Source of the DNA: Roseomonas sp. OT10
Lineage (GTDB): Bacteria > Pseudomonadota > Alphaproteobacteria > Acetobacterales > Acetobacteraceae
Direction of reading: 5' to 3'
DNA: 64,000 bases
Assembly: GCF_020991085.1 (NCBI RefSeq)
Contig: NZ_CP087719.1
Location: 4,422,001-4,486,000, forward strand
Shown: piece by piece, positions 5,462 to 58,628 of the stretch
Position numbering within the stretch: the first letter of the stretch is position 1
Layout of the letters: every line of letters begins with the position of its first letter
Translations under genes and position numbers: made by a program
The notes under the pieces: generated by a model
Databases searched by the model: none
The model's input: the letters and a program-made list of their open reading frames with translations, nothing else
Told to the model about the DNA's origin: nothing

Positions 5462-5800
5462 GTGGCCCGGGGGCAAGGCTCTGCCTCGCCCCCGATACCC
5501 CCACTCCGCCAGGACCCTGCGGGCCCTGGACCCAAAGGGCGCTGCCGCGGGACAGCCGGACACGGGGTCGCGGCGCCGAGGAGCATAGCTCCTCGGCGGG
5601 TACGAGGTCCGCTCGCGCTGACACCTTCTGGATTTCTTCTGGAGTCCCGCCTGTCCGCGTTCCGTCAGGGTTGAGCCCGCAGGCTGACGCCCACCGCGTA
5701 GAGCCAGACTCCCAGCGGGGACCGGGGCCCGCTTGTGGCCCCGGCAGGGGAGGGTCTGGGAGGGGACGGCGTCCCCTCCCGGTCCGACGCCCGGACACCA
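5462..5800 (+). repeat. Structured intergenic repeat, copy A
   Basis: One of six near-full copies of a dispersed element. In order it has: hairpin 1 (5468-5494, arms CGGGGGC.AGGC / GCCT.GCCCCCG); hairpin 2 (5510-5530, CCAGGaCCC / GGGcCCTGG); a GCTGCCGCGGGACAGCCGG box; a CGGGGTCGCGGCGCC box; hairpin 3 (5575-5597, GCCGAGGAGC / GCTCCTCGGC); a GCCTGTCCGCG box; a CGTCAG/CTGACG pair; a CCAGACTCCCAGCGGGG box; hairpin 5 (5722-5744, CCGGGGCC / GGCCCCGG); and hairpin 6 (5758-5780, GGGAGGGGAC / GTCCCCTCCC). Unlike the other copies it does not follow a gene on its own strand; it runs toward the 3' end of the minus-strand beta-propeller gene. No protein-coding role is apparent. Confidence 0.85.
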
Positions 5801-5840
5801 CAGCACCACGGGGCACGTCATCCCCCCGTCCGTATCAGAA

Positions 5841-6923
5841 TCAGACGCGCAGGATGCTCACCGTGTCGCCGTTCAGGTCTTCGACCGGCGGCTGGCCACG
5901 CGGCGCCATGCGGGCCTTGTTGGTGACGTAGGCGAGACCGGATCGGCGGTCGACCGCCACCGTGTTCGGATGCGTGCCCGTTTCCAGCTGGGCCAGCACC
6001 GTCAGCCCGCGCGCATCGACGACGCTCACGGTCCCGGCGCCGCGATTCGCCACGTAGGCCAGCGCCCCGTCTCCCGAGAGGGTGACGCCGAGCGCCCCGG
6101 CGCCCGTCTCCAGGGCCTTGACCGGGCTGCCCGAGGCGGCGTCGAGGATGGCGAGCTGCCCGCTCTTCTGGTTGGTGCAGAAGAGGCGGCCGCTGGCCGG
6201 GTCGAAGGCCAGGTTGATCGGCCCCTCGCCGCCCGAGGCGAAGCGGCGCACCCCGGCCTTCCGCGACAGGCTGACCTCGACGATCTCGTTCGTCTGCAGG
6301 GCCGTGGCGAAGAGGCGGTCGCCCGCGGGGTCGTAGGCGAGGCCGGTGATGCCGCCATCCAGCCCCTCGGTGATGGTCCCGGCAATGGTCCTGGCGGCGG
6401 TGTCGACCACCCAGATCGCGCTCGGCTTGCCCCGCGCGCCGAAGACGCTGACGAAGGCCCGGTCGTGCGCCTCGTCCGCCACCACCTGGCGGACATGCGC
6501 GCCCTCCTCGGCGCCGATCCGGGCCGTCACCGTGCCGCTGCGGAGGTCGATCGCCAGCAGCTTGCCGTCGCGCGTGGCGGTGCCCAGCAGCGTCCCGGAG
6601 CGGTCGTTCACCGCGAGGCCGAAGGCCGGATCGTCGCCCAAGGCGATGGCCGAGCGCACGTCCAGGGTGCGCGGGTCGAGGCCAAGGATCTTCGCCTCGT
6701 TGGCGCCACGCGGGCCGGTGGCGGCGACATGGACCAGCCCGGTGGTGGTGCTGACGACGATCTCGTACAGGCCGGGCGCGATCCGGGCCGTCTTCTCCAC
6801 CAGCGGGGCGGCCCGCAGGGGCGAGGCGCGCAGGGCCAGCCCCGCCGCCCCGAGGAAGGCCAGGGCGCTGCGGCGCGACAAGGCGGGGGCGGAGCGACAG
6901 GCGCTCGGATCGACGGCCGGCAT
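5841..6923 (-). CDS. Exported YncE-like beta-propeller protein
   Basis: A 360-residue secreted protein built almost wholly of YVTN/YncE-type beta-propeller repeats; members bind ligands or other proteins in the periplasm, and no enzyme activity is assigned here. Repeats are visible as recurring segments such as GDDPAFGLAVND, GLDGGITGLAYDPAGDRLF, GEGPINLAFDPASGRLF and GTHPNTVAVDRRSGLAYVTN. The N-terminus has a twin-arginine-like signal (SRRSALAFLGAAGLALRA). The start at 6923 is chosen because AAGGAGG lies 6 bases upstream; a frame extension of 14 residues has no such site. The gene is monocistronic, divergent from the liv operon, with repeat copy A facing its 3' end. Confidence 0.85.
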   Translation of the reverse strand: MPAVDPSACRSAPALSRRSALAFLGAAGLALRASPLRAAPLVEKTARIAPGLYEIVVSTTTGLVHVAATGPRGANEAKILGLDPRTLDVRSAIALGDDPAFGLAVNDRSGTLLGTATRDGKLLAIDLRSGTVTARIGAEEGAHVRQVVADEAHDRAFVSVFGARGKPSAIWVVDTAARTIAGTITEGLDGGITGLAYDPAGDRLFATALQTNEIVEVSLSRKAGVRRFASGGEGPINLAFDPASGRLFCTNQKSGQLAILDAASGSPVKALETGAGALGVTLSGDGALAYVANRGAGTVSVVDARGLTVLAQLETGTHPNTVAVDRRSGLAYVTNKARMAPRGQPPVEDLNGDTVSILRV

Positions 6924-7191
6924 GCCGGGCCTCCTTAAGGTCTTGGCTTCCGCATCCGGCCACATCGCCCGCCACGGCGGGGCCCCGTGGCCCCAGCGGA
7001 GGAAGCTACCAAACGCGAATGGATATCATTAGCTCTCGTCGGAGGGCCGGGGCAATGCCGCCTGGCCCGGGGCAGCCGCGCGGGCAGGGCGCGGCCGGCA
7101 TGCTTGTGCGGCCGGGGTGGCTCTGCGACAAGCTGCTGCGACTGCCTCACATTATTGCTTCCAGGGCACGGGACGCGCGGCGGAGAGACGA

Positions 7192-8415
7192 ATGCGGGAC
7201 GAGGCTGCAGCACGAGGCGACGCTTCTCGCCCTGCCCTGTCGCGACGACTGCTGCTACGGGGCGCGGCCGCCCTGCCCGCCGCTCCGCTCGCGCGTCCCG
7301 CTCTGGCGCAGGCCGTGGCACCTCTGCGCATCGGCCTCATCACCTCCCTCACCGGCCCCTTTGCCTCGCTGGGCGCCAGCCTGCAGGCGGGGGTGCAGCT
7401 GCTCGTCTCGCAGTCCGGGGGCCGCTTCGCCGGGCGGACGGTGGAGCTGCTGGTGGAGGACGACCAGGCCAGGCCCGACGAGGGCGTGCGCAAGGCGCGC
7501 AAGCTGCTCGGGCAGGACCGGGTGGCGGTGCTCTGCGGCGTCATCAGCTCCGGCGTCGCCCTCGCGCTGCGCGACGTGGTCACCGAGGCGAAGGTGCCGA
7601 CCTTCCTGCTCGGCTCGGCCAACGACCTCGCGCGCAAGGCCGCCAGCCCCTGGATCGTCCGCCCGACCAAGACGAACTGGATGCTGGGCGATACCGCCGC
7701 CCGCTGGACCCATGAGCGGCTAGCCGCGCCGCGGGTGCTGACCGTCGGCTCGGACTACGCGGCAGGTCGGGAGTTCGTCGGCGACTTCGCCCAGACCTAC
7801 CAGCGGCTCGGCGGCCGGCTGGGCCGGCAGCTCTGGACGCCGCTGGGCAGTGCCGATTTCGGCCCGCTGCTGACCACCATCGCCGCCGAGCGGCCGGCGG
7901 CGGTCTATGGCTTCTTCGCCGGCAGCGACGCGGTGCGCTTCCTGCGGCAGTGGAAGGAGTACCGGCTGGCCGGCCGCGTGCCGCTGATCGGCGCGGGGGC
8001 CTTCTTCGACCAGGAGGACGTGCTGCCGGCGGTGGGCGATGCCGCGCTGGGGGCGCTCAACACCTTCCACCAATCCCCGACGGCGCCCGCGGCGGAGACC
8101 TTCCGCCGGGCCTACATGGCCTCGGGCGGCCCCCTGCCCGGCGAGTTCAGCACCAGCGGCTATGTCTGCGGCCAGGTGATCCGGGCGGCGCTGGAGCGCG
8201 CGGCGGGTGACCTCGCGGATTGGGAGAAGGCGCGCCAGGCCCTGTTCGCCGCGCCGGTGGACACCGCCTTCGGCCGCATGCCCTTCGATCCCCGCAACGG
8301 TCAGGCGATCCTCGACATCCACGTGAACGAGGTGCGCCGCGGCCCGGAGGGCGCGATGGTCAACACGGTCGTCCATACCTACGAGGCGGTGCGCGACCCG
8401 GGCCCCGAGGCCTGA
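7192..8415 (+). CDS. Branched-chain-amino-acid-type ABC substrate-binding protein
   Basis: Periplasmic type I binding protein (LivK/leucine-binding superfamily) that delivers an amino acid or related small organic compound to the permeases encoded next to it. The 407-residue product has a twin-arginine-like leader (SRRLLLRGAAALPAAPLARPA) and then the family opening APLRIGLITSLTGPFASLG. Later come the VAVLCGVISSGVALAL and FLLGSAND segments of the ligand cleft and a YGFFAGSDAVRFLRQW region. The start at 7192 has GGAGAG 5 bases upstream. It is the first gene of a five-gene operon (binding protein, two permeases, two ATPases). The substrate cannot be read from sequence: this family also carries amides, urea and aromatic acids. 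Confidence 0.92.
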   Translation: MRDEAAARGDASRPALSRRLLLRGAAALPAAPLARPALAQAVAPLRIGLITSLTGPFASLGASLQAGVQLLVSQSGGRFAGRTVELLVEDDQARPDEGVRKARKLLGQDRVAVLCGVISSGVALALRDVVTEAKVPTFLLGSANDLARKAASPWIVRPTKTNWMLGDTAARWTHERLAAPRVLTVGSDYAAGREFVGDFAQTYQRLGGRLGRQLWTPLGSADFGPLLTTIAAERPAAVYGFFAGSDAVRFLRQWKEYRLAGRVPLIGAGAFFDQEDVLPAVGDAALGALNTFHQSPTAPAAETFRRAYMASGGPLPGEFSTSGYVCGQVIRAALERAAGDLADWEKARQALFAAPVDTAFGRMPFDPRNGQAILDIHVNEVRRGPEGAMVNTVVHTYEAVRDPGPEA

Positions 8416-8426
8416 GCGGCGCGGGG

Positions 8427-9296
8427 ATGGCCTATGCCCTCGTCCAGCTCCTGAACGCGCTGTCCTTCTCGGCGCTGCTGCTGCTGACGGGGCTGGGCCT
8501 GTCCGTCGTGCTCAGCCTGATGAATTTCCTGAACCTGGCGCACGGCTCCTTCTACCTGCTGGGCAGCTACGTCGCGATCCTCTGGTTCGCCTCCGGCGCA
8601 CCGTGGTGGCTGGCCTTCCCGGCCGCGTTCCTCGCGACGGGGCTGGCGGGCGCGCTGCTGGAGCGCACGCTGTTCCGCCGCTTCTATGGCCGCACCCACC
8701 TGATGCAGGTGCTGCTGACCTATGGCCTCTCCGTCGTCTTCGCCGACCTGATGCGCTGGGGCTTCGGGGCGCAGATCCTCTCGCCCACCCTGCCGGAGGC
8801 GCTGCAGGGGGTGGTCTTCCTCCTGGACATGCCCTTCCCCGTCTACCGCCTCTTCCTCATCGCCGCGGGTACCGTGCTCGCGCTGCTGCTCTGGCTGCTG
8901 CTGGACCACACCCTCTGGGGCGCCGCGATCCGCGCCTCCGTCGACGACCGCGGCGTGGTCGAGACGCTGGGCCTCGACACCGGCCGCCTCTTCACGGCCG
9001 TCTCCGTGCTCGCGACCGGGCTGGGGGGGATCAGCGGCGCCCTGGGGGCGGGCATGCTGGCCGCCTATCCCGGGCTGGACGAGGAGGTGCTGATCCTCGC
9101 CCTGGTCACGGTGGTGGTCGGCGGGCTCGGCACCTTCCGCGGCACCGTCGCCAGCGCCCTGGTGGTCGGCTTCACCCTGACCTTCAGCCGGGTGTGGTTC
9201 CCGGAATTCGCGAACGTCGCAGCCTTCTCGGCCATGGCCGTCCTGCTGCTGCTGCGCCCGCAAGGGCTGGTCGCACCGCGGCTGCGGCAGGTGTGA
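8427..9296 (+). CDS. livH: LivH-type ABC permease
   Basis: Inner-membrane permease subunit of the branched-chain-amino-acid-type importer. The 289-residue product is strongly hydrophobic with about eight membrane segments. It carries the family motifs LMNFLNLAHGSFYLLGSY near residue 30 and the cytoplasmic coupling region AIRASVDDRGVVETLGLDTGRL near 180. The start at 8427 lies 12 bases after the upstream stop with a GCGGGG site. It is followed not by livM directly but by a 388-base gap containing repeat copy B. Confidence 0.93.
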   Translation: MAYALVQLLNALSFSALLLLTGLGLSVVLSLMNFLNLAHGSFYLLGSYVAILWFASGAPWWLAFPAAFLATGLAGALLERTLFRRFYGRTHLMQVLLTYGLSVVFADLMRWGFGAQILSPTLPEALQGVVFLLDMPFPVYRLFLIAAGTVLALLLWLLLDHTLWGAAIRASVDDRGVVETLGLDTGRLFTAVSVLATGLGGISGALGAGMLAAYPGLDEEVLILALVTVVVGGLGTFRGTVASALVVGFTLTFSRVWFPEFANVAAFSAMAVLLLLRPQGLVAPRLRQV

Positions 9297-9329
9297 CGGC
9301 CTTGCCCGACCGGCATCCGCACGGGCCGT

Positions 9330-9640
9330 CACCCGCCAGGGGGAAAAGCGCCGCCTTTCCCCCCGCCCCCCCTCTCCGCCAGGGGCAGAGCCCCTGGCCC
9401 CCCCTTTCACGGACGCGTCGGCACGCCGGGGAGCATCGCTCCCCGGCGACTGTGACCGCAGCGAGCGCGGCCTTTGCTTCCACTTCGGCGCCCCGCCTGT
9501 CCGCGCTTTCCAGGGGTTCAGCCTGCGGGCTGGCCCCTGCCGCGCGGAGCCAGACTCCCAGCGGGGTCCGGGGCCCGCTCGTGGCCCCGGCGGAGGGGGG
9601 GCCAGAGGCGAGGCAGCGCCTCCCCCCGGTCCACCGCCAG
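9330..9640 (+). repeat. Structured intergenic repeat, copy B, between livH and livM
   Basis: Begins about 35 bases after the livH stop, in the operon's orientation. Hairpin 1 has GGGGGAAA/TTTCCCCC arms. Hairpin 2 (9378-9398) has GCCAGGGGC/GCCCCTGGC. Hairpin 3 (9425-9447) has GCCGGGGAGC/GCTCCCCGGC. There is a GCCTGTCCGCG box, a CAGGGG/CCCCTG pair in place of copy A's CGTCAG/CTGACG, the CCAGACTCCCAGCGGGG box, hairpin 5 (9568-9590, CCGGGGCC/GGCCCCGG) and a shorter hairpin 6 (9605-9622). Relative to copy A the stems differ by paired changes on both arms. Confidence 0.85.
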
Positions 9641-9684
9641 CCACAGCCGCACCGCAAGCCCGCCGGGTCCCGGTCGCCACACGC

Positions 9685-12145: not shown

Positions 12146-12152
12146 GCGCCCC

Positions 12153-13163: not shown

Positions 13164-13209
13164 GGCGTTCCTCCTGTCCTGTTGTCGCGCTCGTTTCCGG
13201 GGGCCGGCG

Positions 13210-13995: not shown

Positions 13996-13999
13996 CGCC

Positions 14000-31046: not shown

Positions 31047-32186
31047 ATGACCCAGGATATCGCCGACGAGCCGCTGCTGCTGACGCCGGGGCCGTGCAGC
31101 CTGAGCCGCACGGTGAAGGAGGCGATGCTGCACGACTACGCCTCCGGCGAGGAGGTGATGGTCGAAAAGATCAGGCATTGCCGCAGCACCCTGCTGGACC
31201 TGGTGAACGGCCATGGCAGCCACACGGCGGTTCCGATCGTGGGCAGCGGCACCTATGCCAACGAGGCGGCGATCGGCACGCTGGTGCCGCGCGACGGCAA
31301 GCTTCTGGTCCATACCAACGGCGTCTACGGCGACCGCATCGTGGACATCGCGCGCCACCTGCGCATCCCCTACGCCTCCTTCCGCACCGCGCCCTTCACC
31401 CCGCCGACGGCGGAGCAGTTCGAGGAGGCGCTGGCCGCCGACCCGGCCATCACCCACGTCATGGTGGTGCATTGCGAGACCTCCACCGGCATCCTGAATC
31501 CGGTGGCAGAGATCGCCGCCGTCTGCCGCCGGCGCGGCGTGGGGCTGCTGATTGATGCCGTCGCCTCCTTCGGCATCATGGAGCTGGACGCGAAGGCGCT
31601 GTCCTACGACGCTGTGGTGCTCTCGGCGAACAAGGGCATCCAGGCGCCGCCGGGCATCGCCTGGGTAATCGCCAAGCGCACGGTGCTGGAGGAAAGCCAG
31701 GGCAACTCGCCGTCCCTCTCGCTCGACCTGTGGGACCAGTACCAGCACATCGAGCGGACCAACCATTTCCGCTTCACCCCGGCGACACACCTGATCCTCG
31801 CCTTCTCCCAGGCCCTGAAGGAGCATGCGGAGGAGGGCGGCATCGCGGGGCGGCAAGCCCGCTACCGCGCCTCCTGGCGACGGCTGGTGGACGGGATGCG
31901 GCAGATGGGCTTTCGCACCCTGCTGGATGACGCCGTGGCCTCGCCCATCGTGGCGACCTTCCACGAGCCGCAGGACGAGAACTACAGCTTCGCCAGGCTC
32001 TATGCGGGGATGAAGGCGCGCGGCTTCATCATCTTCCCGGGCCGGCTGGCGGCCGCGAACACCTTCCGCATCGCCTGCATCGGTGTCGTCACCCCCGACG
32101 ACATCGCTCGCGCCATGGAGGCCCTGGCCGAGACCATGGCCGAGATGGGTGTCCGCTCCTTCGGCCGCGAACCGGTCCCGGCCTGA
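31047..32186 (+). CDS. PhnW-like class V aminotransferase
   Basis: PLP-dependent aminotransferase related to 2-aminoethylphosphonate-pyruvate transaminase (PhnW), possibly converting an aminoalkyl compound plus pyruvate to an aldehyde plus alanine. The 379-residue product has LLTPGPCSLSRTV near the start, a GSGTYANEAA phosphate-binding loop, the PLP-contacting Asp in LLIDAVASFG (D170) and the Schiff-base lysine in SANKGIQAPPG (K196). AGGGAG lies 8 bases before the ATG at 31047. It lies 79 bases after the dipeptide-type transporter and may extend that operon, but no phosphonatase (PhnX) gene is nearby. Serine-pyruvate or alanine-glyoxylate transaminase activity is possible instead. Confidence 0.85.
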   Translation: MTQDIADEPLLLTPGPCSLSRTVKEAMLHDYASGEEVMVEKIRHCRSTLLDLVNGHGSHTAVPIVGSGTYANEAAIGTLVPRDGKLLVHTNGVYGDRIVDIARHLRIPYASFRTAPFTPPTAEQFEEALAADPAITHVMVVHCETSTGILNPVAEIAAVCRRRGVGLLIDAVASFGIMELDAKALSYDAVVLSANKGIQAPPGIAWVIAKRTVLEESQGNSPSLSLDLWDQYQHIERTNHFRFTPATHLILAFSQALKEHAEEGGIAGRQARYRASWRRLVDGMRQMGFRTLLDDAVASPIVATFHEPQDENYSFARLYAGMKARGFIIFPGRLAAANTFRIACIGVVTPDDIARAMEALAETMAEMGVRSFGREPVPA

Positions 32187-32204
32187 CGACATCACTGCGG
32201 GGTG

Positions 32205-32339
32205 GCGCTGGCATCCGCCGTCGCCCCCCCTCCGCCGGGGGCAAGCCGACGCCCGCACCACGGCAGAAGTCTGGCTCCGCCTGATTGGGGTCAGCCTGCG
32301 AACTGATCCGCACGGCATGATGCGTTGACACCTGCCGGG
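32205..32339 (+). repeat. Partial structured-repeat sequence upstream of copy C
   Basis: Scrambled pieces resembling the dispersed element, including AGAAGTCTGGCTCCGCC (compare the CCAGACT box of full copies, inverted) and TCAGCCTGCGAACTGAT (compare the GTCAG...CTGAC module). It suggests a decayed or rearranged copy next to copy C. Confidence 0.5.
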
Positions 32340-32715
32340 GTGGTGTCCGTGGCCCGGGGGCAAGGCTCTGCCTCGCCCCCGTACCCCCACTCCGCCAGGA
32401 CCCTGCGGGCCCTGGACCCGATCGGCGCTGCCGCGCGGATGACTGCGACGGGGTCGAGGCGCCGAGGAGCATGGCTCCTCGGCGAGTACGGCCACAGCAC
32501 TCGCTGACGCCTCCTGATTTTTTCAGAGTCCCGCCTGTCCGAGCTCCGTCAGGGTTCAGCCCGCAGGCTGACGGCAGCCGCGAAGAGCCAACTCCCAGCG
32601 GGGTCCGGGGCCCGCTCGTGGCCCCGGCAGGGGAGGGTCCGGGACGGGGATCGACGCACGGCGTCGATGCCGCAGGCCGGCGTCCCCTCCAGGTCCGCCG
32701 CCTGAACACCACGGC
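32340..32715 (+). repeat. Structured intergenic repeat, copy C, downstream of the PhnW-like gene
   Basis: The closest relative of copy A. It contains hairpin 1 near 32354-32381, hairpin 2 (32395-32415, CCAGGaCCC/GGGcCCTGG), a CGGGGTCGAGGCGCC box, hairpin 3 (32461-32483, GCCGAGGAGC/GCTCCTCGGC), a GCCTGTCCGAG box, CCGTCAG/CTGACGG arms, the CCAACTCCCAGCGGGG box and hairpin 5 (32605-32627). Hairpin 6 is expanded: a perfect 8-base-pair stem ATCGACGC/GCGTCGAT (32649-32667) is inserted in it. It lies on the same strand as the aminotransferase gene and 3' of it. Confidence 0.85.
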
Positions 32716-32740
32716 ACGACCGGTCAGGGCAGTTCCTCGT

Positions 32741-32960
32741 TCGTATAAGGCAGGCGGCCCACGCCCGGCGGGGACACCGAGGCGCCGGCACGCACGGTCT
32801 TTGCCTTCGCCCCGGCGCCTTGCCTCGTCTTCAGGTTCAGCCTGCCGGCTTCGCCACAGCGGGACGGAGCCAACTCTCCGCAGGGCGGTCCGGGGAGTGG
32901 GCGGGACAGCACCCCACCTCGCCCCACAGCGCACGCCCGCGCCTTTCAGCGGGCAGTGCC
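32741..32960 (+). repeat. Degenerate structured-repeat copy downstream of copy C
   Basis: Contains recognisable late modules in the same order as full copies: AGGTTCAGCCTGCCGGC, then GGGACGGAGCCAACTCTCC, then GCGGTCCGGGG. The palindromes are largely lost. It follows copy C directly and probably is a decayed tandem copy. It ends at the stop of the small exported protein gene. Confidence 0.5.
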
Positions 32961-33485
32961 TCAGGGATTAGGAGGCAGGGAAGCCGGAGCCGCGGCGGGA
33001 GGCGGTGTCGATGCGGCCACAGGCGGGGCGGCTGCGGGCAGCGGGGAGGTGGCCGCGGCCGAGCGCTGGGTTTGCAAGGTGCGACGGTCGGCCTCGACCT
33101 GACGCTGCAACTCGCTCAGCTGCTGTTCGCGCTCGGCCATGCGACGCTCCAGCCACTGGGTTTCCACCGTCGCCACCGTCGGGGCAGGCGCCGGCGTCGT
33201 GCGGCGCGCCACGCGCCGGGCCGGTGCGGCGGAGGCTCGGCGGACCGGGGGCGGGGCCGGGACCATGGCAGGGGGCGGGGCCCAGTCGAGGATCGGGACG
33301 GGTGCGCTGCGGGCGCCGCCGGGCATCGCCTGGGACGTGGCCGGGGAGGCCAGGAAGCGGTCCAGCGTGGTGATGGTCTGGCGCAAGGCGTCGCCGCCGG
33401 GGCCGACCTCGTTCGGCCAGGTCTGTGCCCAGGCGGCAGCGGGGAGGAGGAGGGCCAGGACGGCGGAGACGGCTAGGCGCGGCAC
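32961..33485 (-). CDS. Exported coiled-coil hypothetical protein
   Basis: A 174-residue protein with a clear signal peptide (MPRLAVSAVLALLLPAAAWA, cleavage before QTWPNEV). It has a Pro/Ala/Arg-rich central part and a helical, probably coiled-coil segment (QWLERRMAEREQQLSELQRQ, around residues 110-135), then a Pro/Ala-rich tail. Start is GTG at 33485 with AGGAGG 6 bases upstream. I do not recognise a family. It lies 48 bases downstream of uppP on the same strand and may be co-transcribed with it; an envelope role is plausible but unproven. Confidence 0.62.
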   Translation of the reverse strand: MPRLAVSAVLALLLPAAAWAQTWPNEVGPGGDALRQTITTLDRFLASPATSQAMPGGARSAPVPILDWAPPPAMVPAPPPVRRASAAPARRVARRTTPAPAPTVATVETQWLERRMAEREQQLSELQRQVEADRRTLQTQRSAAATSPLPAAAPPVAASTPPPAAAPASLPPNP

Positions 33486-33533
33486 GGGGGTCCTCCTGTG
33501 TCGATGCTCCGCGCTACCGGCGCGTGCGGATCC

Positions 33534-34340
33534 CTAGCGGAGCACCAGCCACACTAACACGATTCCGCCCAGGGCGATGCGGTACCAGCCGAAGGGCTCG
33601 AAGCCCATGCGGCTGATGTGGCGCAGCACCCAGCGAACCACGGCCAGGCCGACCACGAAGGCCGCGAAGAAGCCCAGGGTGATCTGCCCCAGATCGTCCA
33701 GGTGCAGCTCGCCGCGGGCCTTCCACAGGCTGTAGGTGGTGGCCGCGATCATGGTCGGGATGGCCAGCAGGAAGGAGAACTCGGCCGCCGCCTTGCGCTC
33801 CACCCCCAGCAGCAGGGCGCCGATGATGGTGGCACCGGAGCGGCTGGTGCCGGGGATCATCGCCAGCACCTGGCCGAAACCGATCAGGAAGGCGGCCAGC
33901 GGGCCGATTTCCGGGATGGAGCCGATCTTCGGAGCGGGGCGGGTGCGCTCGATGACGATCAGGGCGACGCCGCCCAGGATCAGCGCCGTGGCCACCACCC
34001 AGGGATTGAACAACAGGGTGGTGATGGTCTTGTGCAGCGTCGCGCCCAGGATGAGGGCGGGCAGGAAGGCGAGCAGCAGGTTCACCGCCACGTAGCGCTC
34101 GCGCGTCCGGGGTGTCCACATGCCGCGGGCGATCGCGATCAGGTCGCCGCGATAGACCCAGATGACGGCCAGGATGGCGCCGAGCTGGATGCTGATCTCG
34201 AAGGTCTTCCCCGGGGGGCCTTCGAAGCCGATCAGCTCGCTGAGCAGGATCAGGTGGCCCGTCGAGGAGATGGGCAGGAATTCGGTAAGCCCTTCCACCA
34301 CCCCCATCAGGAGGGCGGAGAAGAGAGCGGCGATATCCAT
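33534..34340 (-). CDS. uppP: Undecaprenyl-diphosphatase
   Basis: Inner-membrane phosphatase (BacA/UppP family) that recycles undecaprenyl pyrophosphate to the monophosphate lipid carrier used for peptidoglycan and O-antigen synthesis. The 268-residue product has about eight membrane segments, the EFLPISSTGHL motif (20-30) and the PGTSRSGATI motif, both parts of the active site. Met at 34340 begins the family-typical MDIAALFSALLMGVVEG; a 28-residue frame extension upstream is not family-like. Its product would serve the surface-polysaccharide locus found 15 kb away. Confidence 0.95.
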   Translation of the reverse strand: MDIAALFSALLMGVVEGLTEFLPISSTGHLILLSELIGFEGPPGKTFEISIQLGAILAVIWVYRGDLIAIARGMWTPRTRERYVAVNLLLAFLPALILGATLHKTITTLLFNPWVVATALILGGVALIVIERTRPAPKIGSIPEIGPLAAFLIGFGQVLAMIPGTSRSGATIIGALLLGVERKAAAEFSFLLAIPTMIAATTYSLWKARGELHLDDLGQITLGFFAAFVVGLAVVRWVLRHISRMGFEPFGWYRIALGGIVLVWLVLR

Positions 34341-34519
34341 CGTGTCGTGGTTTCCGCGCGGGATCGGGGCTTCCTGATAGCCCGCGCCACCGGGGGTGGC
34401 GAGTGTCCGGTGGGCCACAGCCACGGGACAGGCCGCGCGCCGCCACCGGGACGCACGGCCTGCCTGTCCAATTCGTCATGCGGGCGGGGGCACGGCGTGG
34501 CCGTGCCCCCGGGTCCGGA

Positions 34520-35608
34520 TCAGCGGACCGTATGCGATGCCGTGAAGGCGAAGTTGTCGAAAGAGTTCTCCGCCACGCGGAACCAGGTGAATTGTTCGTC
34601 ACGGTAGCGACGGTAGGATTCCAGCACCTTGCGGAACTTCTCGTTCTTCTGCGCCGTCTCCTCGTAGACGGTATTGGCCGCCTTCCAGGCCGCCTCCAGC
34701 ACGGGGCGGGGATAGCCGCGCAGCTGCGCGCCCGCCGCCACCAGCCGGCGCAGCGCCTGGGGGTTGGAGTTGTCGTAGCGGCTGGTCATCTCCGAATCCT
34801 GCTCCAGGCAGGCGACCTGGAGCGCCTGCTTGTACAGTTCCGGCAGGCTCTCCCAGGCGCGGAGGTTGACCAGGGTGTGCAGCCGCGCGCTCGGCTCGAA
34901 GAAGCCGGGGTAGTAGTAGAAAGGCGCGACGCGGACGAAGCCGAGCTTCTCGTCGTCGTGGGGCCCGACGAACTCCACGGCGTCCAGCGTGCCGCGCTCC
35001 AGCGAGGGGTAGATGTCGCCCGCCGCCACCTGGGTCGGAACCGATCCCAGCCGCGCGAAGATCTCGCCCGCGATCCCGGCGACGCGGAACTTCAGGCCCT
35101 TCAGGTCGTCGACCGACTTGATCTCCTTGCGGAACCAGCCGCCCATCTGGGCCCCGGTGTCGCCGCTGGGGAAGCCGATGATGTTATAGTCCTTGAACAG
35201 CTCGTTCGCGAGCTCGTTGCCGCCGCCATGCCGCAGCCAGGCGGTCATCTGCCGCTGGGTCAGGCCGAAGGGCAGCGCGGTGAAGAAGGAGAAGGCCGCG
35301 TCCTTGCCCACGTAGTAGTAGGAGGCGGTGTGCGCCGCCTCGATCGTGCCCGCCTGCACCGCGTCCAGCGCCTGCAGCCCGCCCACGATCTCGCCCGCCG
35401 CGAAGACCCGGATCTGGAACTTGTTGTCCGTCAGCGCCGCGACGCGCTTGGCGATCAGCTCCGGCGTCGAGAACAGGATGTCCAGATTCTTGGGAAAGGA
35501 GGAGGTCAGCCGCCAGCGGACCTCCGGCGTGGTCTGGGCGATGGCAGGGGCGGCAAGCGCGACGGGCGCGGCGGCGGCCGCGGCGCCGAACAGGGCGCGA
35601 CGGTTCAT
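34520..35608 (-). CDS. TRAP transporter solute-binding protein (DctP family)
   Basis: Periplasmic receptor of a tripartite ATP-independent transporter, the subgroup usually binding carboxylates such as 2-oxoacids. The 362-residue product has a twin-arginine-like signal (MNRRALFGAAAAAAPVALAAPAIAQ), then EVRWRLTSSFPKNLDILF. The DctP core includes LKFRVAGIAGEIFARLGSVP with its conserved Arg, and VEFVGPHDDEKLG. ATG at 35608 has AGAGG 8 bases upstream; an ATG at 35614 is an alternative. No dctQ or dctM membrane genes are within the window near it, so it is an orphan receptor. Confidence 0.9.
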   Translation of the reverse strand: MNRRALFGAAAAAAPVALAAPAIAQTTPEVRWRLTSSFPKNLDILFSTPELIAKRVAALTDNKFQIRVFAAGEIVGGLQALDAVQAGTIEAAHTASYYYVGKDAAFSFFTALPFGLTQRQMTAWLRHGGGNELANELFKDYNIIGFPSGDTGAQMGGWFRKEIKSVDDLKGLKFRVAGIAGEIFARLGSVPTQVAAGDIYPSLERGTLDAVEFVGPHDDEKLGFVRVAPFYYYPGFFEPSARLHTLVNLRAWESLPELYKQALQVACLEQDSEMTSRYDNSNPQALRRLVAAGAQLRGYPRPVLEAAWKAANTVYEETAQKNEKFRKVLESYRRYRDEQFTWFRVAENSFDNFAFTASHTVR

Positions 35609-35744
35609 GGGCATTTCCTCTCCGGAACGTCGTATGCCCCCATAGAGAACGGAATGTGCGCCGCGGCGCAAGCACCCGGCGGTGGCCGCCAGGGCGGCTT
35701 CGTACGACGCATGGACTTCGCCGGCTGGCCGCGCGGGTCTGGCG

Positions 35745-36085
35745 TTGCAACGGCCCCCCCGGCGGAGGCTCTGTCTCCCCCCTTCCCCCTCCGCTGGAGC
35801 CACAAGCTGGCCCCGGCCCCCGCTGGAAGTCTGGTGCTGTCCGGCAGACGTCATCCCGTGGGCGAACCCTGACGGCGCGCGGGCGGGCGAGAATCCGGAA
35901 AAACCCCATGGGGGGTCAGCGAGCGCGGAGGCCGTGCCCGCCGAGGCGCTTGGCGCCTTGGCGACGTGACCCCGTCACCGGCTGTCCCGCGGCAGCGCCA
36001 ACCGGGTCCAGGGCTCGAAGAGTCCTGGCGGAGTGGGGGTATCGGGGGCGAGGCAGAGCCTTGCCTCCGGGGAACGGGCGCGCCG
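35745..36085 (-). repeat. Structured intergenic repeat, copy D, downstream of pheA
   Basis: Runs on the minus strand starting about 30 bases after the pheA stop. Hairpin 1 is at 36044-36070. Hairpin 2 is at 36008-36028 with arms CCAGGgCTC/GAGtCCTGG, a paired change from copy A. The GCTGCCGCGGGACAGCCGG box follows. Hairpin 3 is at 35940-35962 (GCCGAGGCGC/GCGCCTTGGC, one G-T pair). The CCGTCAGGGTTC module and the CCAGACTTCCAGCGGGG-like box (near 35815-35835) follow. Hairpins 5 and 6 are degenerate. Confidence 0.82.
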
Positions 36086-36114
36086 CGATCACCCGGTGCG
36101 GCGGGCCGCCTGCG

Positions 36115-36957
36115 TCAGTCCCCGCCCTGGCTGTGCCGGTAGGGATGGGCCGGGTAGGTCCCGAGCACCCGCATCCCGCGGGAGAAGAAGCGCAACTCCT
36201 CGAAGGCGCGTTCCAGGGCGGGGCTGTCGGCGCGCCCGTCCACGTCGCAGAGGAACTGCGTCGCGGAGAAGTGCCCGTCCAGCATGTAGGATTCGAGCTT
36301 CGTCATGTTCACGCCGTTGGTCGCGAACCCGCCCAGCGCCTTGTACAGCGCGGCGGGGACGGAGCGGGTGCGGAAGACGAAGGTGGTGACGCAATCCTCG
36401 CCCTCCGGCATCCGCGCCTCGCGCGACATGACGTAGAAGCGGGTGGTGTTGTGCTCCGCGTCCTCGACGTTGCGGCGCAGGATGGCCAGACCGTAGGTCT
36501 CGGCCGCCAGGGCGGAGGCGACGGCCGCGTCCTCCACCCCGCCGATCCCCGCGACGATATGGGCGGCGCCGGCCGTGTCCGCCTCGATCACCGGCTGCAT
36601 CCCCGTGTCGCGGATCAGGTTCAGCACCTGGCCCAGGGCGACGGGGTGGCTGTGCAGGCGCTTCAGCGTGGCGAGCGTGGCACCCGCCGGGGCCATCAGG
36701 CAGTGCTCCACCCGCTCGAAATGCTCGCCCACCACGTGCAGCCCCGAATCGGGCAGCAGGCGGTGGATGTCGGGCACCCGGCCGGCGAGGCTGTTCTCGC
36801 AGGGGAGCATGGCCAGCTCCGCCTGTCCCTCGCGCACCGCTGCCATCGCCGCCTCGAAGGAGGGGCAGGGCAGCGTGGTCCAGCCGGGATAGGCGGCCCG
36901 GCAGGCGAGGTCGGAATATGCGCCGGGCAGGCCCTGGAAGGCGATCACCCCGCTCAT
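36115..36957 (-). CDS. pheA: Prephenate dehydratase
   Basis: Converts prephenate to phenylpyruvate in phenylalanine synthesis. The 280-residue monofunctional enzyme has the N-terminal FQGLPGAYSDLACR catalytic-domain opening, the NTTRFYVMS motif that contains the essential Thr-Arg-Phe, and a C-terminal ACT regulatory domain (from about residue 195, VFRTRSVPAALYKALGGFA). In the ACT domain ESYMLDG stands in place of the usual ESRP-type motif. The ATG at 36957 overlaps the kdsB stop by 4 bases (ATGA). No chorismate mutase domain is attached. Confidence 0.95.
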   Translation of the reverse strand: MSGVIAFQGLPGAYSDLACRAAYPGWTTLPCPSFEAAMAAVREGQAELAMLPCENSLAGRVPDIHRLLPDSGLHVVGEHFERVEHCLMAPAGATLATLKRLHSHPVALGQVLNLIRDTGMQPVIEADTAGAAHIVAGIGGVEDAAVASALAAETYGLAILRRNVEDAEHNTTRFYVMSREARMPEGEDCVTTFVFRTRSVPAALYKALGGFATNGVNMTKLESYMLDGHFSATQFLCDVDGRADSPALERAFEELRFFSRGMRVLGTYPAHPYRHSQGGD

Positions 36958-43049: not shown

Positions 43050-43071
43050 GGCGGGATCGCTCCAGTGGCCG

Positions 43072-43400
43072 GTCCCCGGGGGGGAAGGCTCCGCCTTTCC
43101 CCCCGGCCCCCCCTATCCGCCAGGACACTGCGTGCCCTGGACCCGGGGAGTCTGCCGGGGACAGCCTGATACGGGGTCGCGGCGCCGGAGGTCTTGGACC
43201 TCCGGCGGGAAAGGTGTCCGTCTGCGCTGACGCCTTTCCCGATTCGGCTGGCGCCCTGCCCGTCCGCGCTCCAAACGGATTCGACCGAAGGCTGACGGCA
43301 CCCACCCGGCACCAGACTCCCGCCGGGGTCCGGGGCCCGGCTGTGGCCCCGGCGGAGGGGGTCGAGAGGGGGAGGCGGCGCCTCCCCCCGGGGGTGGGCC
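43072..43400 (+). repeat. Structured intergenic repeat, copy E, between yejB and yejE
   Basis: Begins about 20 bases after the yejB stop, in operon orientation. Hairpin 1 (about 43079-43105) has arms GGGGGAAGGC/GCCTTTCCCCC. Hairpin 2 (43120-43140) has CCAGGaCAC/GTGcCCTGG. Next come the CGGGGTCGCGGCGCC box and hairpin 3 (43184-43206, GCCGGAGGTC/GACCTCCGGC). A GCCCGTCCGCG box and the CCAGACTCCCGCCGGGG box follow. Then come hairpin 5 (43330-43352) and hairpin 6 (43368-43388, GGGGGAGGC/GCCTCCCCC). Stems 2, 3 and 6 differ from copy A by paired substitutions. Confidence 0.87.
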
Positions 43401-50635: not shown

Positions 50636-50661
50636 GGGGGGGAGGCGTTGCCTGGCCCCCC
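50636..50661 (+). repeat. Solo hairpin-1 module of the structured repeat
   Basis: A stem with GGGG.AGGC / GCCT.GCCCC-type arms and a GTT loop, 56 bases after the second glycosyltransferase stop, on the gene's strand. It matches the first hairpin of full repeat copies; the other modules are absent or unrecognisable. Confidence 0.5.
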
Positions 50662-50681
50662 GCCGGGGCGCCGGGGCGGAT

Positions 50682-50697
50682 TCACCCCATCGGGTGA
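50682..50697 (+). terminator. Terminator-like hairpin before gmd
   Basis: Six-base-pair stem TCACCC/GGGTGA with a CATC loop followed by TTT, located between the glycosyltransferase pair and gmd. It could end the first transcript of the locus, leaving gmd-rmd with its own promoter. Confidence 0.45.
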
Positions 50698-50723
50698 TTT
50701 CACCTTCCGGCCATCCGTTCTAA

Positions 50724-51737
<1,014 letters not shown>

Positions 51738-51742
51738 CGGCG

Positions 51743-52717: not shown

Positions 52718-52739
52718 TCCCCGGCCGCCGTCGCCTGGA

Positions 52740-52758
52740 GGGAAGGCTCCGCCTCCCC
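52740..52758. repeat. Solo hairpin-1 module between rmd and a convergent glycosyltransferase gene
   Basis: GGGaAGGC / GCCTcCCC arms around a TCC loop, 22 bases after the rmd stop. It matches the first hairpin of the dispersed repeat (compare copy E) without the later modules. Its place between convergent genes suggests it works as a terminator. Confidence 0.5.
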
Positions 52759-52777
52759 CGAGGGCCCGGAGCGACGC

Positions 52778-54187: not shown

Positions 54188-54212
54188 GGGCGGCGGGGTC
54201 CGGGGGCGGCGG

Positions 54213-54953: not shown

Positions 54954-54957
54954 CCAC

Positions 54958-55791
54958 TCAGACCCAGAACGCGACCCGGCCGCGGAAGCGGACGAAGAAG
55001 GCGAAGGCGCCGGCGGCGGCCAGGGCCGTGTAGAGGAAGGCGGCGAGCCAGGCCACGGGCGGCCCACCGCCTTCCACCAGGGGCCCGCGCACCGTCTCGA
55101 GCAGGGCGTAGAAGGGGTTCAGCACCAGCCAGGGCTGCCAGTCGCCCGCCAGTTCCGGCTTCCAGATCACCGGCGTCATGAAGAAGGCGAGCTGCATCAC
55201 GCTGCCGACGATCGGCCCGATGTCGCGGAAGCGGGCGCAGAGCATGCCGAGGAAGAGGGAAACGGACAGGGCGTTGATGGCGAGCAGGAGCAGGCCGGGA
55301 ATGGCCAGCACCGCCTCCGCGCCCGGCCACTGGTCCAGCGCCAGGAAGACTAGGAGGATCAGCGGCAGGCTGTGCGCCGCCGTCAGCAGATTGCGGAAGA
55401 CGCAGCGCAGCGCGTGCACGGTATAGGGCAGCCGCAGCTGGCGGATCACCCCCTCGGCGCTGGTCAGCGAGGTGCAGGCGTCGGTGACCACGGCGCTGAT
55501 GACGTTCCAGGTGATCAGGCTGACCGCCAGGTGCGGCAGGTAGCCCTGCAGCGTCATCCCGAAGAGCCGGGCGTAGAGGAAGCCCAGCCCCACCAGCATC
55601 ACCGCGGTGGACAGCGTCATCCAGAAGGGGCCGATGACCGAGCCGCGGTAGCGGTTGCGCAGGTCCAGCCGGGCCAGGGCCCAGGCCAGCCGCCAGGATG
55701 CCAGCCCCTCGCCCAGATCCTCGAGGGCCCGGGAGAGGTGCTTGGGGTCGCTCGCGTCGATACTGTGGACGGGCGCCAGGAGAGCGGTCAT
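54958..55791 (-). CDS. Polysaccharide-export ABC permease (Wzm/KpsM-like)
   Basis: Inner-membrane ABC-2 type permease, 277 residues with about six membrane segments. It shows the family segments DLRNRYRGSVIGPFWMTLSTAVM (residues about 40-62) and FFMTPVIWKPE. It forms the channel with the ATPase encoded 4 bases downstream. The ATG at 55791 is favoured over an in-frame start 12 codons upstream because the latter adds an unrelated basic stretch. Confidence 0.92.
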   Translation of the reverse strand: MTALLAPVHSIDASDPKHLSRALEDLGEGLASWRLAWALARLDLRNRYRGSVIGPFWMTLSTAVMLVGLGFLYARLFGMTLQGYLPHLAVSLITWNVISAVVTDACTSLTSAEGVIRQLRLPYTVHALRCVFRNLLTAAHSLPLILLVFLALDQWPGAEAVLAIPGLLLLAINALSVSLFLGMLCARFRDIGPIVGSVMQLAFFMTPVIWKPELAGDWQPWLVLNPFYALLETVRGPLVEGGGPPVAWLAAFLYTALAAAGAFAFFVRFRGRVAFWV

Positions 55792-55852
55792 GCGGCGCTG
55801 CCTATACGATGCCGCCTGCCCCCACAACAGAGCGTGGCGCCCGTGCCGGCTG

Positions 55853-56440
55853 CTATTGCTTCAGGGCGTAGCCGGTCCCGGCCGGGGCGGCGCCGAGGGG
55901 CGTGGCGGCCGCGGGCGGATAGGCGGCGGGGGCATAGGCCGGGGCGGCGGGTGGTCCGCCGGCGGCCCGGCTGATCCGGGCGCGGTCGGGGCCGTAGCTG
56001 ATCATCACCCGGTCGCCGGCCTGCAGCCCCTCCTCGTTGGTCTGCACCACGGCGACGTCGCCGCCGCCATCCTGGCGGATGACGAACTCGATGGCCTGGC
56101 CGGTGGTGGCGCCCCGCTCGATCGCGTTGCCGGCCAGCCCGCCGATGATCGCGCCGCCGAGTCCGGCGATGAGGTTGGAGCGCCAGTCGCCGCCGATGAA
56201 GGAGCCGGCGACGCCGCCGGCCACCGCGCCCGCCGCCGTGCCGACGCCCGGTCCGCCATAGCCGCCCTGTACCGTCACCGGCCGGGAGCCGACGATGGTG
56301 CCGTAGCTGACCGCGGCCGGACGCCCGAGCGAGGCCGCGCTGTAGGTCGCGCCGCTCTGCTGCGGCGCGCAGGCGGCAAGGCCCCCTGCCAGCAGCAGGG
56401 GCGCCAGCAGGGCGCGGAAGGTCGGGACGAAGGCAGGCAT
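55853..56440 (-). CDS. Glycine-zipper outer-membrane lipoprotein
   Basis: A 195-residue lipoprotein of the SlyB/YmgG-like glycine-zipper type, likely in the outer membrane. It has a signal peptide ending in the lipobox LAAC, and a central pair of Gly-zipper helices (GVGTAAGAVAGGVAGSFIGG and LIAGLGGAIIGGLAGNAI, residues about 65-105). A small beta domain (EFVIRQDGGGDVAVVQTNEEGL) and an Ala/Pro/Tyr-rich tail follow. The start at 56440 is where the signal peptide begins. Such proteins influence membrane integrity; no specific role can be read here. Confidence 0.85.
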   Translation of the reverse strand: MPAFVPTFRALLAPLLLAGGLAACAPQQSGATYSAASLGRPAAVSYGTIVGSRPVTVQGGYGGPGVGTAAGAVAGGVAGSFIGGDWRSNLIAGLGGAIIGGLAGNAIERGATTGQAIEFVIRQDGGGDVAVVQTNEEGLQAGDRVMISYGPDRARISRAAGGPPAAPAYAPAAYPPAAATPLGAAPAGTGYALKQ

Positions 56441-56702
56441 CGGAAGGCTCCCTGGGGGACGGTGTTGCCGGAACAACGCACGTCACGAGGATACAGGGGT
56501 CATTTGGCGCCTTGAGGACACGGTCGCCACCCCCCGGCGTGTGAAGAAGCATCTCCAGCTTGCCTGCCCCCCGGGGTTCCAGTAGCCCTTCCGGCCACAG
56601 GCAACCGCCTGTCCCGGCCGCGCTGCGGCCTTCCGAACGGCGTGGGGGCGTCGCGAGGGGGCCGCGAATCGCGGACGGGCTTCTCCGAAGGGGGGATAGG
56701 GG

Positions 56703-58253
56703 ATGGCTCCTGCCGGTGCCGATCGGTGCAATCTGCTCGCTCGCTGGCGAGGGGTGGCGACCCTGTCGCTGCTGACCCTGGTCGCGGCCTGCGGCAGCCA
56801 GCCGACCACCTCGGGGCCCACGACGCGCGCATCCGCCTCGATGCACCGCCCCGCCTCCTACGACCCGCCCGGCCCGGCCGGCGATCCCTGGGGTCCCTAT
56901 GTCCGCGAGGCCTCCCGCCGCTTCGACGTGCCGGAGCGCTGGATCCGCGAGGTGATGCGCCAGGAGAGCGCGGGCCGTGCCACGGCCACCAGCCCGGTCG
57001 GCGCCATGGGGCTGATGCAGGTGATGCCCGGCACCTATGCCGAACTGCGCTACAAGCACGGGCTGGGGGACGATCCCTACCACCCCTACGACAGCATCAT
57101 GGCCGGCACCGCCTACATCCGGCAGATGTACGACCTCTACGGCAGCCCCGGCTTCCTCGCCGCCTACAATGCGGGCCCGCGCCGGCTGGAGGACTACCTC
57201 TGGGCCAATCGCGGCATGCCGGCGGAGACGCGCAACTACGTCGCCCGCATCGGGCCGCGCATCATCGACGCCCACCCGAACCGGCGCGCCCCGCCGGAGG
57301 TCTACGCCGCGGCCGAGATCCCGCTGAACATCCCCGCCGGTCCGCGCCGCATGGACAGCGCCACCATGCTGGCCCTGCGCGAGCAGCGGGAGCAGCGCCG
57401 CCAGGCCGACCAGCCGGCGGTACAGATGGCCAGCCTGCCCGCTGGCCCGGTGGTCCGCATGGAACCCATCCCGGACGGGTCCACCCGCCGGGTGCAGGTC
57501 GCCAGCCTGGGGGTCGCCGGGCTGGGTCCCAATGTCGTCGCCATGGAACCGATCCCGGATGGCACCTCCGCCGCCGCGGTCGCCGCGCCCACGCTGGGCC
57601 GCAACGTGATCGCGATGGACCCGATCCCCGACGGCTCCACCGGCCCGGCACCCGTGGCGAGCGCAGCCGCGGCCAGCCTGGGTCCCAACGTGGTCGCCAT
57701 GGCGCCGATCCCGGACGGCTCCACCGGCCCCGCCCCCGCCGTGGCGGAGGAGCCAGCCCCGCGTCCTGCGCCCCGCTTCGCAGAGCAGCCGACCCCGCGG
57801 TCCCTGCCCACCCCGCCGGCCTTCGCCACGGCGCCGGCCCCGCCGCCCCGTACCCAGTTCGCCGCCGCGCGCACCCCGGCCCCGGCGCCCAACTTCCCGG
57901 CGCCGGCCTCCGGCCCGTTCCGGAACATGGCGCTGATCCCCGCCGCCCAGGCGAGCACCCTGCCGAGCGGGATGCGCGGTAGCCCCGCCCCGGCCGTAGC
58001 CGCGACCGGCGGCAACTGGGCGGTGCAGGTCGGCGCCTTCGCCAGCGAGAACTTGGCGCGCGCCGCCGCCAACCAGGCCAAGGGCAGCATCCCCGGCGCC
58101 AACCGTGTCGCGGTCCAGGCAGTGTCCCAGGGACGCTCCACCCTCTACCGCGCCCGGGTGATCGGCCTGTCGCGCGAAGGGGCCCAGGGGGCCTGCGAGA
58201 AGCTGCGCGCCCGCGGCGCCTGCATGGCGCTGTCGCCCGACGCCCAGAGTTGA
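56703..58253 (+). CDS. Lytic transglycosylase lipoprotein with SPOR domain
   Basis: Peptidoglycan-cleaving lytic transglycosylase combined with a septal-peptidoglycan-binding SPOR domain. The 516-residue product has a lipobox (LVAAC, C30) and an SLT domain at about 63-200. The SLT domain has the catalytic Glu in MRQESAGRA (E88), GAMGLMQVMPGTY and AAYNAGP. A long Pro/Ala-rich linker follows, then a C-terminal SPOR domain (437-516, starting GGNWAVQVGAF). Within the linker (about 250-345) PIPDGS/T-type units repeat four times. GGGGGGATAGGGG precedes the ATG. It is a single-gene unit ended by a strong hairpin. Confidence 0.93.
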   Translation: MAPAGADRCNLLARWRGVATLSLLTLVAACGSQPTTSGPTTRASASMHRPASYDPPGPAGDPWGPYVREASRRFDVPERWIREVMRQESAGRATATSPVGAMGLMQVMPGTYAELRYKHGLGDDPYHPYDSIMAGTAYIRQMYDLYGSPGFLAAYNAGPRRLEDYLWANRGMPAETRNYVARIGPRIIDAHPNRRAPPEVYAAAEIPLNIPAGPRRMDSATMLALREQREQRRQADQPAVQMASLPAGPVVRMEPIPDGSTRRVQVASLGVAGLGPNVVAMEPIPDGTSAAAVAAPTLGRNVIAMDPIPDGSTGPAPVASAAAASLGPNVVAMAPIPDGSTGPAPAVAEEPAPRPAPRFAEQPTPRSLPTPPAFATAPAPPPRTQFAAARTPAPAPNFPAPASGPFRNMALIPAAQASTLPSGMRGSPAPAVAATGGNWAVQVGAFASENLARAAANQAKGSIPGANRVAVQAVSQGRSTLYRARVIGLSREGAQGACEKLRARGACMALSPDAQS

Positions 58254-58293
58254 GGCGGCCCATGCCGGGGGAGGGTCTCCCTCTGGATATACG

Positions 58294-58321
58294 GGGCCCC
58301 GGACCGGGTAGTTCGGGGCCC
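58294..58321 (+). terminator. Hairpin after the lytic transglycosylase gene
   Basis: Eight-base-pair perfect stem GGGCCCCG/CGGGGCCC with a 12-base loop, 40 bases after the stop. It is GC-rich and followed by TTGTCG rather than a T-run. It is likely a terminator or 3' stabiliser and lies just beyond the end of repeat copy F. Confidence 0.45.
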
Positions 58322-58344
58322 TTGTCGTCTCCAGGTGGATGCCT

Positions 58345-58628
58345 CCAAGAGGGGACGCCGTCCCCTCCCCCTCCCTCCCCCTGCCGGGGCCCGAAGCCGG
58401 GCCCCGGACCCCGGGCTTGAGTCTGGCACCCGCTGAGCCGTCAGCCTGCGGGCTGTCCCCGGAGAATTCGCGGACCGGCGGGGCTCCACGGAAGAATGCC
58501 GGGCCACACACGCCGTCGCCGGAGGTCATGGACCTCCGGCGCGACCCCGCTGCCGTGAAGGGGGGTGCAGGGGCTCTGCTCCTGCCGGATAGGGAGGTTG
58601 GGGGGACAAGGCGGAGCCTTTCCCCCCA
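58345..58628 (-). repeat. Structured intergenic repeat, copy F, downstream of the Ldh-type gene
   Basis: Runs on the minus strand, starting 16 bases after the stop of the dehydrogenase gene. Hairpin 1 is at about 58600-58627 (GGGGGG..AAGGC/GCCTT.CCCCCC). Hairpin 2 is at 58568-58584 (CAGGgGC/GCtCCTG). Hairpin 3 is at 58518-58540 (GCCGGAGGTC/GACCTCCGGC). Next come a CAGCCCGCAGGCTGACGG module and a CCAGACTC box. Hairpin 5 is at 58384-58407 (CCGGGGCCCG/CGGGCCCCGG) and hairpin 6 at 58349-58367 (GAGGGGAC/GTCCCCTC). It is the shortest of the full copies. Confidence 0.85.

Follow-up and report, generated by a model that had tools for sequence, protein, structure and literature searches.

A multi-hairpin family of miniature inverted-repeat transposable elements at gene 3' ends in Roseomonas sp. 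OT10

Described repeats and the Roseomonas element

The closest described counterparts of the element treated here are the Correia/NEMIS, RUP, and BOX repeats, which, according to PMC3049150 and PMC2229807, share with it a short, non-coding sequence, terminal inverted repeats (TIRs), a target duplication, a high copy number, and the capacity to fold as RNA. The element in question is an intergenic repeat with several hairpins, found as six copies (A to F) in a stretch of 64,000 nucleotides from the Roseomonas sp. OT10 genome (assembly GCF_020991085.1, contig NZ_CP087719.1, positions 4,422,001 to 4,486,000; hereafter the window). By its ends, its target duplication, and an empty site, it is of a known kind, the miniature inverted-repeat transposable element (MITE). 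It nevertheless stands apart from the bacterial MITEs covered in PMC2229807, which are shorter than 200 bp, mostly A+T-rich, and have TA ends. Complete copies of the Roseomonas element, such as A and C, are instead about 420-450 nt long; the element is 73% GC, duplicates a TNA triplet, and has an interior of five well-kept, constrained hairpin modules.

Other repeats resemble it in part. SPRITE of Streptococcus pneumoniae is likewise strongly enriched between convergent genes and near their 3' ends, and its co-option as a terminator has been proposed in PMC3049150; SPRITE is, however, a duplex with a U-rich tract, whereas full copies of the present element contain several GC-rich hairpins and only rarely a U tail. 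The Caulobacter CIR repeats and YPAL/RU-2 can be likened to it by description, being intergenic, with inverted arms and conserved folds, although YPAL duplicates anywhere between 3 and 26 bp of its target in place of the TNA seen here (both from PMC2229807). Among the papers listed in literature searches, none has a title or abstract opening that reports such an element for Roseomonas or its family.

The mobility of the family is well supported; terminal repeats, target duplication, an empty site, and copy number together identify it as a MITE family. For its present state, the favored and reasonably probable account is that of an old, non-autonomous family whose hairpins selection has retained where they landed, as structures that serve the 3' ends on both sides.

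Anatomy and abundance

A BLAST search with copy C as query recovers A, B, D, E, and F, and the coordinates in Table 1 derive from a profile made by aligning 45 copies; all six from the window contributed to it and score 129-433 bits against it. The first-pass annotation of the window had placed six copies at about these positions with modules in a common order, and both points are confirmed. Its bounds were roughly right, but A and C reach 37-51 nt farther left and 33-37 nt farther right. It had also reported that no terminal repeat was visible and had stated that a match to a known transposon-derived repeat with terminal inverted repeats would defeat its idea of a 3' element; A and C do have terminal inverted repeats, and in full copies these are found together with a duplication of the TNA target. 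As to origin, this is the outcome that it had itself set against the idea.

Table 1. Coordinates of the six copies in the window and of their ends and hairpins where delimited (TSD, target-site duplication)
Feature	Position	Strand	Remarks
Copy A	5412-5837 by profile (part 5411-5837)	+	Complete MITE; profile positions 3-455 of 456
Copy A, left TSD-like triplet	5411-5413		TTA; unequal to right triplet
Copy A, left TIR	~5414-5430		
Copy A, H1	5466-5494	+	
Copy A, H2	5509-5529	+	
Copy A, H3	5573-5598	+	
Copy A, H5	5722-5744	+	
Copy A, H6	5758-5780	+	
Copy A, right TIR	~5819-5834		
Copy A, right TSD	5835-5837		TCA
Copy B	9334-9656	+	Diverged, without terminal repeats; 37 nt past gene end 9296; profile positions 54-428, 157.9 bits
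Copy C	32303-32748	+	Complete MITE with an extra 28-nt hairpin; profile positions 2-455, 432.8 bits
Copy C, left TSD	32304-32306		TGA
Copy C, left TIR	~32307-32322		
Copy C, right TIR	~32730-32745		
Copy C, right TSD-like triplet	32746-32748		TAA; middle base unequal to left triplet
Copy D	35776-36085	-	Diverged, without terminal repeats; flanked by two minus-strand genes
Copy E	43068-43391	+	Diverged, without terminal repeats; fills a tandem-gene gap, 18 and 25 nt from the genes
Copy F	58320-58665	-	Most diverged copy of the window, 129.5 bits; without terminal repeats; match overlaps the upstream gene end by 22 nt

Alignment of the 45 copies with their flanks reveals sharp borders with terminal inverted repeats, CTSATACGGACGGCGGGATG on the left and CATCCCGCCGTCGGTATCAG on the right, which are imperfect and measure about 16-19 nt. 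Between them lie hairpins H1, H2, and H3, a weaker H4, and then H5 and H6. A 20-nt box pattern, allowing up to three mismatches, occurs at 237 sites in the 5.69-Mb genome and at 16 for the reversed control, which excludes chance for this pattern; within the window it marks A and C only, with a mean of 0.23 sites expected. A sequence-profile search of the genome returned at least 150 scored matches.

Copies were counted in a sample consisting of chromosome positions 0.2-0.6 Mb and 4.0-4.4 Mb plus the window (864 kb, 15% of the genome), with genes called by a codon model that had been trained on the same sequence. Of 88 local-profile hits, 12 below 60 bits and one overlapping a better hit were removed, leaving 75 copies: 58 full (at least 300 bits) and 17 diverged (below 260 bits). 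Both terminal repeats are present in 40 of the 75. The family has no coding capacity, the greatest overlap with a called gene being 22 nt, as judged from the codon-model genes and not from the reading frames of each copy. It accounts for 3.3% of the sampled sequence, a share that matters for annotation, and extrapolation at an even density would give about 460 copies for the chromosome. Two diverged matches were found in 120 kb sampled from contig C2, and none in 20 kb sampled from contig C3. Among the 52 full copies scoring at least 340 bits, pairwise identity ranges from 79 to 94% with a mean of 85.7%, so the burst of copying was not recent.

A 19-mer from the terminal repeat, searched with up to two mismatches, has 127 sites in this genome, none in the reversed control, and 0-2 per genome in 14 others of the genus; in the form given here, the repeat is thus nearly restricted to this genome within the 15. 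Of eleven TIR sites retrieved because no copy was apparent around them, ten proved to lie inside full or truncated copies. The other (C1:1604408-1604426, L269) is a solitary terminal repeat without an element, located between two convergent reading frames; it is possibly an excision relic or a chance match.

A scan of the window with Rfam 15 brought only a small signal recognition particle RNA to its gathering score and placed no known RNA family at the copies. The gene for this RNA (5074-5170, minus strand) lies between copy A and a long minus-strand gene at 2993-5041.

Insertion at TNA triplets

The borders were read in 62 two-ended copies, drawn from the three sampled regions and 37 further loci with duplicates removed. 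The flanking triplets are TCA/TCA in 23, TGA/TGA in 13, and TTA/TTA in one, an exact match over 3 nt in 37 of the 62. The middle base is equal in 52, whereas the best of 10,000 permutations reached 40, and the TNA register scored highest among the registers scanned. The left triplet is preceded by C in 37 copies and the right one followed by G in 40. Taken together, these sequence counts indicate that copies inserted at TNA, often within CTNAG, with duplication of 3 nt.

One end overlaps the stop codon of a neighboring gene in 24 of the 40 two-ended copies of the sample. Copies with TCA abut the stop of the downstream gene (13 cases) and those with TGA that of the upstream gene (9 cases), the crossed combinations do not occur, and two more copies have a changed triplet. 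The TNA duplication restores the stop, which shows how a transposon can enter stop codons harmlessly. No special targeting of stops is needed: they make up 159 of the 361 TSA triplets in convergent gaps (44%), a share that the observed stop-codon insertions there, 19 of 30, exceed only slightly (p = 0.04). Among the CTSAG sites of these gaps, 22 of 36 are stops. TGA accounts for 619 of 741 stops. BOX elements provide a gene's stop codon in 36 cases, as given in PMC3049150.

The empty site at sucB is well documented. The copy there sits between two TAA triplets, the first of which is the sucB stop. In nine same-genus genomes, the sucB match begins at the gene end and does not run into the copy. 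The profile detects no copy in 24 fetched loci (both loci tried, about 1.5 kb on each side), and none follows the stop in the seven loci whose stop is readable. At the position of copy D, the distance between aligned gene parts, taken by hand from match coordinates, is about 110-142 nt in 9 of 14 same-genus genomes versus about 530 nt here; among the remaining relatives, two have 2-4 kb and three have the first gene elsewhere. Another locus tried for an empty site gave no clean syntenic match and was not used.

Position relative to genes

A full copy is present in 45 of the 109 gaps between convergent genes, in 13 of the 520 between tandem genes, and in none of the 109 between divergent genes; 45 of the 58 are consequently 3' of both neighbors. 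Diverged copies are distributed as 6 convergent, 11 tandem, and 0 divergent, so that, counting these as well, 51 of the 109 convergent gene pairs contain a copy. The convergent excess, measured against element-free intergenic bases, has p = 1.5e-24, and the complete lack of divergent insertions has a chance of 9e-10. The location just 3' of genes noticed in the first-pass annotation thereby extends beyond the window: all 75 sampled copies lie 3' of at least one gene and none lies between divergent genes.

The strand relationship fared differently. Copies B to F do lie on the strand of the preceding gene, with A as the exception, but outside the window no strand is fixed. In the tandem gaps of the sample, 10 copies point the same way as the genes and 14 the other way, which rejects a fixed orientation to the upstream gene and makes the pattern peculiar to the window. 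For two relatives (G003 and G012), 20 fetched regions yield 22 rows, of which 10 are convergent, 9 tandem with and 3 tandem against the genes, and none divergent; this is a biased set chosen as good matches, in which one region (L222) is counted twice through overlapping hits and one edge copy is omitted.

Conservation of the hairpins

The interior and the ends of the element have diverged to different degrees. Across the 40 two-ended copies, identity to the consensus is 81-84% in the terminal repeats and 95-99.6% in H1, H2, H3, H5, and H6. Private changes, defined as those confined to one or two copies, number 60 in 1536 cells of the terminal repeats (triplets included), 138 in 6993 cells of the linkers, and 21 in 5398 cells of the hairpins and the H1-H2 box. 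In the five hairpins they are about 10 times rarer than in the terminal repeats, which must have been functional when the element inserted. With triplets excluded, the rates at G/C sites are 2.5% in terminal repeats, 1.9% in linkers, and 0.37% in hairpins; at non-CpG G/C sites, the corresponding values are 3.6, 1.8, and 0.25%. Broken pair cells in the young family amount to 5 of 360 in H6 and 1 of 400 in H1, with none in H2, H3, or H5.

Covariation was assessed in 37 sequences, comprising 15 diverged and 7 full copies from this genome and 15 copies from two relatives. Stems H1, H2, H3, and H5 are 95.6% paired, and 14 pairs and 98 cells are changed on both sides, compared with shuffled means of 8.0 and 33.2. 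Four of the measures were reached by none of 500 shuffles, which ignore relatedness, and a fifth by two. Sliding the stems by one column reduces pairing to 57-59%, a control that favors all four stems because they were written from one sequence of the set.

The contrast in private changes and the covariation together suggest, on sequence grounds, that the hairpins have been kept as 3'-end modules after insertion. A role at 3' ends, as the first-pass annotation had proposed, is not refuted and gains from the low number of private changes in the hairpins and the covariation of four of them, but a classical U-tailed terminator is rare in full copies.

A probable history and points that weigh against it

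The spread of the family may be pictured as follows. A transposase acting in trans, possibly extinct in this genome, would have recognized TACGGACGGCGGGATG as the terminal repeat, and each copy would have entered at a TNA triplet (TGA, TCA, and in one case TTA) that was duplicated in the process. Since most stop codons are TGA, many insertions would have coincided precisely with stops and spared the protein. Those in genes, promoters, and most operon gaps would have been lost, leaving survivors concentrated between convergent genes. The copies are probably immobile today, and H1, H2, H3, H5, and H6 would be kept by selection in place. Most likely, these modules would act as RNA hairpins for the 3' ends on both sides, protecting the ends of both neighboring transcripts or helping to set their limits.

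A further step, in which the transposon has been turned copy by copy into genome-wide two-sided gene-end modules, with the hairpins and no longer the transposition ends under selection, can be put forward only tentatively. If true, a mobile element would furnish a genome poor in classical terminators with RNA structures for 3' ends or for insulation. Should the hairpin constraint be real, the family would be old enough for its terminal repeats to decay while its hairpins did not, and the same element at many gene ends would constitute a natural, many-replicate experiment in one genome, in which one could test directly whether bacterial MITEs are co-opted as 3'-end modules.

Several observations weigh against selection for a 3'-end function or leave gaps in the history just outlined. 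The position bias needs no function, being seen also in pneumococcal repeats and insertion sequence (IS) elements, as stated in PMC3049150. In H4 and the GTCCCGCC box, private changes are as frequent as in the linkers (1.9 and 2.0%), despite consensus identities of 0.934 and 0.975. The variation of the terminal repeats may come partly from subfamilies and not from decay. Gene conversion between copies could lower the divergence of the interior, although it does not readily explain why constrained modules lie so close, within a few bases, to variable linkers. U-tailed terminators were found in only 1 of 58 full copies in the sense direction and 5 of 58 in the antisense, so an intrinsic terminator is not the element's typical identity. 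At sucB, where two close relatives (G003 and G004) have a hairpin followed by a T run about 50-70 nt past the stop, a similar terminator is present in this genome beyond the copy, so that the copy had no need to take its place there. Finally, the genome has 26 matches to DUF4096 (PF13340) and 34 to DDE_Tnp_1 (PF01609), partly in the same elements, and a scan of 20 PF13340 and 30 PF01609 loci with up to four mismatches found no transposase with the ends of this MITE, other transposase classes not having been searched. A MITE needs no partner transposase in the same genome.

Terminators are scarce with or without the element. Diverged copies have a U-tailed terminator in 4 of 17 cases in sense and 0 of 17 in antisense, and window positions 31900-36400 contain no GC-rich hairpin followed by a T run. 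In element-free sequence past convergent gene ends, terminators number 4 in 90 where a full copy is present, 0 in 12 with a diverged copy, and 4 in 88 with none; this equal rarity gives no sign that copies replace terminators. A simple scan assigns a U-tailed intrinsic terminator to 8 of the 190 convergent gene ends in the sample, and the genome may rely on other ways to end transcripts.

Alternative explanations

It is possible, but on balance unlikely, that the family is a purely parasitic MITE. Copies would then survive between convergent genes only because insertions elsewhere do harm, the hairpins would do nothing for the host, and their low divergence would go back to gene conversion or to the source copies. 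Such an element would have terminal repeats and a TNA duplication, insertion into stops little exceeds its expected share, and the convergent bias of pneumococcal repeats is interpreted as tolerance in PMC3049150. The deficit of private changes in the five hairpins relative to the terminal repeats, however, concerns changes that should mostly have arisen after insertion, and the stems covary between species; both points speak against this reading.

The notion of a vertically inherited functional RNA or terminator, born at gene ends and with its terminal complementarity serving as a closing stem, is largely refuted and has very little probability left. The exclusively 3' location of the 75 copies and the covariation of multiple hairpins would suit it, but the borders carry direct 3-nt duplications in the register of transposition, nine relatives have no copy at sucB, and 9 of 14 leave too little room for copy D between the flanking genes. 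The strand is also not fixed in tandem gaps, and U-tailed terminators are few.

Roseomonas is presumably placed in the Acetobacteraceae. The idea of a palindromic repeat of the REP/BIME type, mobilized by a RAYT (Y1) transposase, is disfavored to the point of being scarcely credible: although REPs occur for the most part between unidirectional and convergent genes, a search of the whole genome for Y1_Tnp at E <= 0.001 gave no match (5 of 14 control genomes were positive), TNA duplication and terminal repeats indicate another class of transposase, and CGTC repeats are absent from Acetobacteraceae (the statements on REPs and CGTC repeats after PMC3733652).

An insertion sequence with the same target

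A 956-bp IS5-type insertion sequence with a DUF4096/DDE transposase is present in at least 12 near-identical copies (L241-L252), nine of them on contig C2. The three copies whose borders were read have TCA or TGA on either side, triplets that the MITE targets as well, but the terminal repeat, GAGCCTGATCCG..., is different, and the loci scanned contain no IS5-type end shared with the MITE. The IS1031-type group of the IS5 family duplicates a TNA target. At one scanned locus (L328), two sites with four mismatches flank, in pair orientation, an IS with other ends and are taken as chance.

Relatives and shared modules

In a search of 60 genomes, this one included, 12 had a match at E <= 0.001: the genome itself, 10 of 14 from the same genus, and one from another family, the last a match of 44 nt (G036). 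Strong matches are restricted to G003, G004, and G012. Diverged relatives of the interior occur in these three and in Roseomonas mucosa. A scan of genome contigs with a 16-nt pattern, which is too short, returned 117 stretches, of which the profile recognizes one, from R. mucosa (L070). Plasmid records gave no match, and viral contigs no exact match to the TIR.

Several copies in two related genomes have a 3' end that also matches the opposite strand of the H1-H2 region, so the two ends of those copies are inverted copies of each other. G003 and G004 also share a different repeat, with ends like the terminal repeats described above, that apparently starts at a stop codon. A second intergenic repeat family in relatives (L258/L281 in G003, L282 in G004, and L285, L289, and L293) is characterized by a AATAAAATCAAC stretch and short repeats of the CTAAAA type; some of its copies have MITE-like ends and others a start resembling H1-H2. 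By eye, some G003 repeats join an H1-H2-like start to the interior of the different repeat that G003 and G004 share. From such ends and starts on other interiors, modules seem to have been exchanged between repeat families.

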